Shown piece after piece: positions 5,260 to 63,891 of a DNA stretch of 64,000 nucleotides. The number at the start of each line of letters is the position of its first letter. Within the stretch, counting starts at the first letter, position 1. The position numbers were made by a program, and so were the translations under genes. This DNA is from Paracoccaceae bacterium. Its GTDB lineage: Bacteria; Pseudomonadota; Alphaproteobacteria; Rhodobacterales; Rhodobacteraceae. The notes below the pieces were generated by a model. It made no database searches, was not told the origin of the DNA, and saw only the letters and a list, made by a program, of their open reading frames with translations. The stretch lies in the NCBI GenBank assembly GCA_027489375.1, contig JAIXZW010000003.1, forward strand, positions 1 through 64,000, given 5' to 3'.

Positions 5260-5331
5260 CGGCAATTCTCCTTTTCACAAGCACCGCTTGGGGACGCCCT
5301 GAAAAGGCGCGTCCGCTTCGGCCTTGTCCGA

Positions 5332-5361
5332 AACATGGGAGGGGTTGGCCCGCCTTGCAAG
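5332..5361 (-). promoter_or_regulatory. RpoH (sigma-32)-type heat-shock promoter of clpB
   Basis: On the minus strand CTTG at 5361-5358 and CCCATGTT at 5339-5332 are separated by 18 nt. This fits the alphaproteobacterial RpoH pattern of CTTG and a C-rich -10 about 17-18 nt apart. It would give a leader of roughly 65 nt before the clpB start. Confidence 0.7.
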
Positions 5362-6199: not shown

Positions 6200-6972
6200 T
6201 GCCGTTCCTTTGGTTTCAACAGCTTTGCAGGGCGCAGGGCTTCTGCCGAACGCATGAGGCTGAAGGTCTGGTTCACGTAATTCACCACGCCCGAGATTTT
6301 TTCCATATAGGCGGTGAGTTCGGGGGTCTTTTCCGCCTCGACCATCTGCACGGGGCGGTCGGGGCCGTCATGTTCGAACTGGCAGTAGAACAGCGGCTCG
6401 CCGCGTTTCAGGATCAGGTCGCGGTCGATGTCGTGCCATTCAAAGGCCCACATCAGCGGGCGCGGCCAGAGTGACAGCGGAAAGCGCCCGCCAAAGATCG
6501 TGCCGGGGAGCGGATCGCGGCGGTAATGGGCAAAGGTGCCGATCTGCGTCAGCCAGACGGGTTCGTCGGCGATGAAGCAATAGGGCAGGGAAAGCTGCAC
6601 GGTCGGGCGGTCGGGGAAGCGCCATTCGGTCTCGGAGACGAGGGTCAGCACCTCGCCGAGTTTGTTGCCACGGATCGGTGATGCGGTTCCGGCGCGGTTG
6701 ACGAGAACGCCCTTGCCCTTGTCGTCGCGGGAAAAGCCGATGTGCAGGTCGAAGGGGCATTTCACCACGAAATAGCGGCTTTCCATCTGGATCACCGCCG
6801 GGCAGCGGCTGGCGCTTTTGGCGTGGGTGCGGTTGGGCGGGCGCGAGACAAGGCGTTCGGGCGGGTCATAAAGCACCGCGCCTTTGTCTTGGGTCAGGAA
6901 CCAGCCGACTTGGACGGGGCCGGATTTCGGGCCATCGTCGGGGCGGTCGTAGGATATGTTGATGTCCACCAT
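6196..6972 (-). CDS. Conserved protein of unknown function
   Basis: The 258-residue protein has no signal peptide or membrane segment and matches no family I can name with confidence; it vaguely recalls DUF6065-type proteins. It is rich in aromatic residues and short turns (for example LWPRPLMWAFEWHDIDRD). Its ATG shares one base with the cutC stop codon, and its own stop overlaps the start of the beta-propeller gene, so it is translated as part of the ROK-cutC-unknown-propeller operon. The tight coupling suggests a function linked to its neighbours. No catalytic motif stands out. Confidence 0.7.
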   Translation of the reverse strand: MVDINISYDRPDDGPKSGPVQVGWFLTQDKGAVLYDPPERLVSRPPNRTHAKSASRCPAVIQMESRYFVVKCPFDLHIGFSRDDKGKGVLVNRAGTASPIRGNKLGEVLTLVSETEWRFPDRPTVQLSLPYCFIADEPVWLTQIGTFAHYRRDPLPGTIFGGRFPLSLWPRPLMWAFEWHDIDRDLILKRGEPLFYCQFEHDGPDRPVQMVEAEKTPELTAYMEKISGVVNYVNQTFSLMRSAEALRPAKLLKPKERQ

Positions 6973-39062: not shown

Positions 39063-39125
39063 GGGGTGCGCAGCGAGTGCGCACCCTACGGGCGGGGATG
39101 TAGGGTGCGCACTTGCTGCGCACCC
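39063..39125. repeat. Palindromic repeat element (REP-like), copy 1
   Basis: Two 28-bp arms face each other across a 7-bp spacer; 39063-39090 is the near-perfect inverted complement of 39098-39125. Each arm itself folds (GTGCGCAGCGAGTGCGCAC core). The same arms recur at 63529-63556 and 63677-63702. It lies between the convergent ureohydrolase and RND genes and probably ends transcription from both. Confidence 0.88.
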
Positions 39126-63528: not shown

Positions 63529-63702
63529 GGGGTGCGCAGCGAGTGCGCACCCTACGGGGGTAAGGTTGGGTTGGACTCGAACCAACATCCGTTTCCGGCT
63601 TTCGCCGGCAAACCCCCCTTGCCAATCGGGGCACACAACCTTGAGATTAGCATAATGCAGGAATAGAGCATGCGCAATGTAGGGTGCGCACTTGCTGCGC
63701 AC
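63529..63702. repeat. Palindromic repeat element (REP-like), copy 2, split by an insert
   Basis: The left arm (63529-63556) and right arm (63677-63702) match the two arms of the copy at 39063-39125 almost exactly. There they are 7 bp apart; here about 120 bp separate them and carry a tRNA-like sequence. Like copy 1, it starts right after the last stop codon of an operon. Confidence 0.85.
63561..63642 (-). other. tRNA-like element or decayed tRNA
   Basis: Read on the minus strand, 82 nt begin with AAGGTTG and end with CAACCTT-A, a perfect acceptor-like stem. A canonical T-arm lies at 63586-63570 (GTTGG-TTCGAGT-CCAAC), and a CCCC / GGGG D-arm-like stem with GG in its loop follows the 5' strand. 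The anticodon region is replaced by a CCGGC-GAAA-GCCGG hairpin without a 7-nt loop, one extra base separates the T-arm from the acceptor, and no CCA follows. It is not a working tRNA. Confidence 0.5.
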
Positions 63703-63745
63703 TTTTACCGATGACCGTAAGAAGGTTCATCGCGACGCTTGGGTT

Positions 63746-63800
63746 GGACCGTGGCCCAAAGCCACGGTCCGCGCGCAGCCCGCCCCCTCGGGCTGCGCGC
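63746..63800. terminator. Two strong adjacent hairpins
   Basis: GGACCGTGGC / GCCACGGTCC (63746-63770, 5-nt loop) and an 11-bp stem at 63771-63781 with 63790-63800 (8-nt loop) abut each other directly. They lie downstream of the minus-strand gene cut by the right edge and may end its transcript. No T run follows. Confidence 0.6.
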
Positions 63801-63891
63801 CAAGGCGCACATCCCGGCGGGCCGCACGCGAACCTAACGGCGGCGCATCGAAACGTTCCACTGGAGCCTTTCGACGCGCCTATCGCTTGGA

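Follow-up and report, generated by a model that had tools for sequence, protein, structure and literature searches.

Near the right-hand end of the window (the whole 64,000-nt stretch of a Paracoccaceae bacterium contig analyzed here), two inverted 25-bp arms lie between convergent genes, with their GTAG ends facing inwards across 123 bp; each differs from GTAGGGTGCGCACTTGCTGCGCACC by one mismatch. The original prediction compared this arrangement with another copy of the repeat (copy 1), in which the arms would be 7 bp apart as against about 120 bp here. The wide spacing stands, while that of copy 1 measures 10 bp, the 7 bp being the distance from CCTACG to ATGTAGGG. The junction is, as claimed, identical in copy 1 and in the interrupted copy, and the intervening sequence does contain a tRNA-like segment. 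The features are as follows (R1 and R2 are models of the tRNA-like RNA; R2 is a covariance model of 38 relatives from which the window copy was left out):

39065-39124 (arms 39065-39089 and 39100-39124): copy 1, a head-to-head REP pair with a 10-bp spacer and without insert
63531-63555, minus strand: left REP element, 25 bp, GTAG head inwards; found with the pattern in its own genome; alone at the orthologous site of genome G311
63562-63642, minus strand: 81-nt tRNA-like RNA that lacks an anticodon loop and an encoded CCA; 81.4 bits with R1, 74.0 bits with R2; covariation in the family
63562-63568, minus strand: acceptor-like stem, 3' strand CAACCTT
63569, minus strand: unpaired C (RNA position 74) between the T stem and the acceptor 3' strand; common to the aligned relatives
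63570-63586, minus strand: T arm, GTTGG-TTCGAGT-CCAAC
63591-63613, minus strand: hairpin with a GAAA loop replacing the anticodon arm; relatives vary its sequence and length and keep the pairing
63615-63631, minus strand: D-arm-like hairpin, CCCC-GATTGGCAA-GGGG; the near-invariant D arm of the family
63636-63642, minus strand: acceptor-like stem, 5' strand AAGGTTG; pairs with 63562-63568 (7/7 pairs)
63649-63654, minus strand: possible -10 box TATGCT, weak (2 mismatches), 6 nt before the RNA
63672-63677, minus strand: possible -35 box TTGCGC, weak (3 mismatches), 17-bp spacer
63679-63703, plus strand: right REP element, 25 bp, GTAG head inwards; found with the pattern in its own genome; missing at the G311 site

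The arms are dispersed GTAG-tagged REP elements, that is, palindromes in the 20-40 bp range with an unpaired GTAG at one end that are repeated in the genome. A pattern search allowing up to two mismatches returned 41 arm matches in the same genome and none for the pattern read backwards, which rules out a chance palindrome. Across 21 regions (20 fetched plus the present one), the elements occur singly, tail to tail, in tandem and head to head, and the spacers of head-to-head pairs range from 6 to 123 bp with unrelated contents. In the available part of their published description, GTAG REPs are likewise GTAG-headed hairpins, found singly or as dimers whose variable spacers are mostly 20 to 100 bp long and may differ in sequence (PMC3733652). 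With about 40 copies, the 25-bp elements described here are fewer than the more than 100 copies usual for REPs according to a portion of PMC2817692. The RAYT transposase is the proposed mobilizer of REPs and no part of their definition; RAYT-type Y1_Tnp (PF01797) gave no match in this genome (assembly 94.6% complete) and was matched in 5 of 14 control genomes. Just to the right of the pair, at 63729-63882, begins another repeat dispersed through intergenic DNA, about 150 bp long and forming strong hairpins (GGACCGTGGCCC...); at least 9 of the 19 genus genomes have copies, and many have several.

The tRNA-like RNA is no regular content of REP spacers, since only one place in the genome, the one studied here, scores more than 31.5 bits with the RNA model; all 20 other REP regions read were without such an RNA. 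Conversely, REP arms surround the RNA at one of the 56 RNA loci checked, namely the window's own, and are absent from the other 55. We also compared the site among the 19 genus genomes searched. In G311 (87% identity over the compared stretch), the left arm follows beyond dctM and the sequence then rejoins that of the window, with 8 bp in place of the window's 172. Neither arm is present at the orthologous site of G307, and none was seen by eye at L062, L063 and L066 to L071, loci that are more distant or have other neighbors. The left REP, standing alone in G311, is thus older than, or independent of, the remainder, and the difference between the window and G311, the one such genome, may reflect a gain in the window lineage or a loss in G311.

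These comparisons bear on both origins that the original prediction had offered. It proposed a check for empty sites in relatives; G311 retains the left arm only, lacking the insert and the right arm, and G307 has neither arm. Insertion of a tRNA-derived element into the center of the palindrome is left without support by a left arm alone in G311 and by neither arm in G307. As for the proposal that the arms are the ends of a mobile unit carrying cargo, collecting the arm copies genome-wide gave varied spacings (6-123 bp) and unrelated contents, which the prediction had itself named as speaking against it. Taken together with the G311 site and the 55 RNA loci without REPs, the dispersed elements and their unrelated spacers exclude the two REPs as termini of a cargo-bearing unit.

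The RNA resembles the upper part of a tRNA. It has in common with tRNA (RF00005) and tRNA-Sec (RF01852) a 7-bp acceptor-like stem, the D-loop GG and the TTCRANT-type T loop that together make up the elbow, with GG and TTC.A invariant in 38 sequences; scores to these models are 22 to 30 bits. The family differs from both in a 4-nt linker before the D stem, in the lack of an anticodon loop, and in the extra C, which intervenes where the acceptor of a tRNA stacks directly on the T stem (12 bp). In the window copy, a GAAA tetraloop is found instead of the 7-nt anticodon loop and CCA, which in a tRNA is either encoded or added, is not encoded, the acceptor stem being followed by ACCCCC. An mRNA-like part with a tag peptide, as in tmRNA, is absent from the 81-nt RNA. 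ARAGORN called no tRNA at the window copy and no tmRNA anywhere in the window, and Rfam 15 reported nothing at gathering score in the window, the best weak match being tRNA-Sec at 22.5 bits; this and a weak EFASI match were taken as chance or tRNA-clan noise. The folding energy of the window sequence by itself is unremarkable (z -0.87). With R2, the window copy scores 74.0 bits (E 1.5e-17) and the next place in the genome 31.5.

The insert belongs to an RNA family without a matching Rfam 15 model of its own, which Rfam 15 touches merely through weak or borderline tRNA-clan scores. No family was reported at gathering score in six further loci, and in a second set of six only L112 reaches the tRNA cut-off of 29 bits; member scores for tRNA include 30.2 (L112), 30.3 (L147, in a permissive scan of this locus by itself) and 25.9 bits. 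Values at or near the cut-off make an origin from real tRNAs likely. L112, from G668, is without Mu-like genes, and its membership is uncertain. Another candidate, the Mu-gpT-DE motif, was dropped; the scanned loci gave no Rfam family besides tRNA. Some members go undetected by ARAGORN, and others receive diverse anticodons (Cys, Arg, Ala, Phe, Gly, Pro, Ser or undefined); on L020 the program called a tmRNA with the member as its 3' end, which we judged spurious. The open-license PMC literature on tRNA-like or mimic RNAs of Mu-like, transposable and other prophages, as far as its accessible portions go, does not describe the family, nor do the corresponding parts of PMC5148205, PMC9004378 and PMC13192938.

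Members were gathered at several taxonomic depths. A blastn search over 295 genomes of the host's family found eight with a match, including the window's own; L010 and L012 are true relatives, which have the D and T arms in common with the window copy and an acceptor stem altered by paired changes, while the other five are short matches. The set was then enlarged through pattern scans of viral and genome collections and through covariance searches. Within the genus, the RNA occurs in 2 of 19 genomes (G000 and G296). Eight of 394 family genomes, the window's included, score 60 bits or higher, the remainder of the 31 listed reaching at most 37.8 bits and being taken as ordinary tRNAs without inspection. 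Among the matches listed for 398 phylum genomes, only G668 (56.9) and G621 (47.3) exceed 45 bits besides the window, with 41.1 next, and 385 class genomes yielded, apart from the own one, only G1091 at E of 1e-8 or below; searches of more than 40 genomes used stricter filters, with which weak members may be lost. In G1091, five places (L175-L179) match the RNA model at 58 to 79 bits. One of the phylum matches below this level that was read, L114 at 39.8 bits, shows loops like those of any normal tRNA. The patterns GCCCTGACAGGTAACGGG and GTGGCCCAATGGNAAGGGTAGC matched no viral contigs, and the E. coli genomes searched with one member contained none. In blastn searches with L018, L147 and L151, no record covers 80% of the query: L147 gave zero matches, and L018 and L151 partial ones only (37 records at E up to 1, eight at E up to 0.01), with several falling within annotated tRNAs. 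Named hosts of members include Rhodobacterales, Burkholderiales, a Rhodocyclaceae MAG and a Desulfovibrionaceae MAG.

Covariation supports the fold across the family. We analyzed 18 sequences including the window copy, and 38 without it, from which near-duplicates and the divergent L112, L113 and L030:6462-6534 were omitted. In the larger set, 97.5% of cells are paired, and changes on both sides occur at 14 of 19 pairs. The covariation score of 0.581 compares with 0.182 in shuffles, which ignore relatedness (0/500 reach it), and falls to 0.096 or less when partner columns are slid by 1 to 3. The acceptor stem, the T stem and the third hairpin covary in both sets, while the D stem hardly varies and is by itself little informative. 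For the third hairpin, eight pairs were counted in the 18-sequence set (72.8% of cells paired) and the three outermost in the 38-sequence set because its length varies. At pair 30-69 of the larger set, G-U is the commonest combination (16, followed by G-C 10, C-G 6 and A-U 5), which argues for an RNA rather than a DNA structure; since G-U pairs are common, we dropped a DNA-cruciform reading. Folded by itself in 44 sequences, the third arm has a loop of 4 nt in 25, 3 nt in 7, 5 nt in 6, 6 nt in 5 and 7 nt in one (L164), with GNRA or TTCG loops in 15. In 43 of the 44, the arm thus lacks a 7-nt loop, so that nearly all members are unable to hold a normal anticodon there.

Most relatives lie in Mu-like phages or prophages. 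With home-made profiles for Mu F, G, I, T and GemA (Pfam served as a check on six such proteins), a Mu-like head gene or GemA was detected within 4 kb of the RNA at 49 of 53 loci, a set that leans to phages by construction and includes near-duplicates (29/29 positive for viral contigs, 13/14 for the genome-contig scan, 7/10 for genome searches plus the window). No such gene was detected at L088, L112, the window and L029, the last of which lies at a contig edge. Mu-like genes also occur at six of the eight loci that represent the family genomes scoring 60 bits or higher, one locus per genome being counted. At 36 of the 53 loci, the F gene lies at the RNA 3' end on the opposite strand, and in 34 of these its stop codon falls in the interval from 7 nt inside the RNA to 16 nt past its 3' end; in the near-identical L031 and L035 it lies 102 nt beyond, with a second tRNA-like sequence between. 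G is found across the RNA from F at 35 of the 36 F-junction loci, in L146 at a distance of 1.3 kb. Seven loci have the RNA between GemA and T, in sense orientation. When viral loci were chosen by gpG alone (the best 80 of 490 relatives, near-identical ones included), the RNA was present in 10, always antisense and no more than 100 nt from where gpG matched; four of these carriers (L244, L262, L281 and L282) are new to the pattern-derived set. The family's fixed site in Mu-like prophages spans several proteobacterial groups, and its absence from 70 of the 80 gpG loci marks the RNA as accessory. Neither vB_ThpS-P1, RC1, vB-Vv-ZX4290 and D3112 (whole or nearly so) nor 12 kb of Mu contains a member, the best score being 16 bits.

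Some loci carry more than one such RNA. In L030 of Tepidimonas alkaliphilus, three tRNA-like RNAs lie within about 1.5 kb (5269-5348, 6462-6534 and 6656-6738), two of them behind a common upstream repeat and the middle one of a divergent type, as in L113. A second, weak tRNA-like sequence stands beside the first in L031, L035 and L149 (28.6, 28.6 and 29.9 bits); those at L149:830-904 and L031:843-916 have the core TTGTTTCCAATGGGAATGGTT in common and perhaps form a sister family. The surroundings of G accommodate further genes: D3112 carries the anti-CRISPR gene AcrF2 between G and the protease, which makes this a region known to host accessory genes, and RC1 has hypothetical genes in the same interval (loci L142 and L144 of the two phages). 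Gaps around G may therefore suit searches for further accessory genes and RNAs. Like the anti-CRISPR slot of D3112, the family occupies an accessory position among head genes adjoining G; unlike AcrF2, it is an RNA that runs antisense and stands on the opposite flank of G.

Upstream of the RNA, we found promoter-like signals of the sigma70 type. Over 49 distinct stretches including the window, related ones among them not being independent, the best -35/-10 pair close to the expected position averages 4.08 mismatches; the mean is 5.77 for shuffled stretches (minimum of 5.41 in 200) and 6.31 for randomly chosen places (minimum 5.86). The commonest layout, a 17-bp spacer with the -10 box ending 8 nt before the RNA, occurs in 18 of the 49. 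With five mismatches in all, the boxes of the window are among the weaker, and another pair ties with them at five.

The window RNA itself is an orphan chromosomal copy without phage genes nearby: the Mu profiles gave no match in the flanks examined, of 4 kb and 1.6 kb. They likewise matched nothing within about 10 kb on either side of the G296 copy or at the loci of G178 (L088, L181) and G668 (L112, L182). The G296 copy sits between thpR-like and amidase-like genes (names from reading the sequence); compared with G000 and G307 it forms an insertion of some 160 bp, and at the same place G311 has 42 bp peculiar to itself. This RNA is enclosed by a 10-bp inverted repeat, and GGCGGGTGTT and GGCGGGCGTT, which by eye stand on either side of the insert, could be an imperfect 10-bp target duplication. 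Between the acceptor stems of the window and G296 copies (AAGGCCG/CGGCCTT in the latter), two pairs are altered on both sides. These double changes suggest that the fold mattered after the two lines parted, and they may have arisen in phage. When orphan and phage flanks were compared, the upstream flanks of both orphans and the downstream flank of the window were no better than shuffles; a downstream match of G296 to L085 (0/200 shuffles) was set aside as partly host sequence common to G307. Without convincing flank similarity, descent of the orphans from prophages lacks support. A Mu-like protease was not matched in the 19 genus genomes, and the control genomes gave no match either.

We are confident that two REPs, not tied to the insert, here flank an orphan member of an RNA family whose other known copies lie mostly in Mu-like phages and prophages; the account as a whole, with the mechanism proposed below, we consider on balance probable. 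The RNA of about 80 nt folds as the upper half of a tRNA, with an acceptor-like stem, a D arm, a T arm and hence presumably an elbow, the anticodon arm being swapped for a capped hairpin of free sequence and length. In phages it is an accessory gene with its own promoter-like boxes, placed antisense at the F/G junction or in sense at the GemA/T junction. In the proposed mechanism, transcription would begin at or near the RNA 5' end, the tRNA fold would stabilize the product, and the RNA would act in trans by occupying a host protein that recognizes the tRNA elbow and the acceptor/T stack. Candidate targets would be a tRNA-processing or -modifying enzyme, or a tRNA-targeting defense or stress protein. 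The elbow and the acceptor/T stack are what elbow-binding proteins read, and the part that varies in the family is what decoding requires; that the elbow/acceptor half is kept while the anticodon arm is free points to a target that reads only this half. Given the promoter-like signals, the opposite strands at the two phage positions and the accessory distribution, a trans-acting mimic appears to be the most economical reading, with decoy action as such a tentative suggestion. Its closest precedent, by analogy and itself a proposal, is the tRNA-like domain of YrlA, which the consulted portion of PMC7790460 puts forward as a competitive inhibitor of an anticodon nuclease.

YrlA also raises the question of common descent. 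As described in parts of PMC8394870 and PMC7790460, it is a non-coding RNA whose D, T and acceptor arms mimic those of tRNA, as in the present family, and a relative of this bacterial Y RNA might tether PNPase or, like the proposed inhibitor, shield tRNAs from a nuclease. YrlA additionally has a second stem that binds Rsr, with which it is sometimes encoded. The tRNA-like module has its counterpart in the present family, but the Ro-binding stem does not, no Y RNA match reached Rfam gathering score in the window or 12 further loci, and no TROVE/Rsr gene was found in the own genome (1 of 14 control genomes matched); the family is set in Mu-like phages instead. We therefore regard kinship with Y RNAs as highly improbable. 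It is also very unlikely, in our view, that the RNA is a degenerate phage or host tRNA gene drifting after loss of its anticodon arm. The tRNA-clan similarity close to the Rfam cut-off and the solitary window copy, without Mu-like genes around it, would fit such a relic, but drift is disfavored by the double changes that preserve the stems across 38 sequences, the near-invariant D and T loops, the recurring phage position and a third hairpin that lacks a 7-nt loop in 43 of 44 sequences.

A function in cis would be of another kind. RNase P and RNase Z read tRNA-like ends and the elbow, and a processing or stability tag cut by them could set the transcript ends of the phage head operon; the ends and elbow of the RNA, and its termination at the F stop codon at the F/G junction, suit this role. 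At that junction, however, the RNA is encoded on the strand opposite the late operon, with its own promoter-like boxes, whereas at GemA/T it lies in sense, and because one cis role does not fit both junctions we find such a tag unlikely. Quite unlikely, too, is a small mobile unit with palindromic ends, REPs here and another inverted repeat in G296, that carries the RNA as cargo. Both orphans of the genus amount to an extra 160-165 bp or so relative to a congener (the window against G311, G296 against G000 and G307), both lie inside inverted repeats with exact cores of 14 and 10 bp (0/60 shuffles each), and the possible target duplication in G296 would agree; by itself, the G296 insert with its inverted repeat leans to a small mobile carrier unrelated to REPs. 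Yet the inverted repeats of the two orphans differ, and of the 47 loci tested for them a phage copy, L150, also has one of 9 bp (0/60 shuffles), so that such repeats can arise by chance. The G296 duplication falls within GC-rich repetitive sequence, and the same account has to contend with the missing Y1_Tnp transposase, the left REP alone in G311, and REPs and RNA that mostly occur apart (20 REP regions, 55 RNA loci).

The fixed places of the relatives in Mu-like phages suggest that these viruses carry a tRNA look-alike for some purpose. To our knowledge, tRNA mimicry in bacterial phages, true tRNA genes aside, has been little described, and the family misleads annotation: ARAGORN labels members tRNAs with differing anticodons. 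The fixed accessory site in Mu-like prophages makes the function testable in lysogens. A broader and more doubtful possibility is that Mu-like phages carry a family of dedicated tRNA-elbow mimics as accessory counter-defense or host-control RNAs, an RNA counterpart of the protein anti-CRISPRs found among head genes in related phages, and that some bacteria retain solitary copies, under compensatory evolution, as resident inhibitors or immunity genes.
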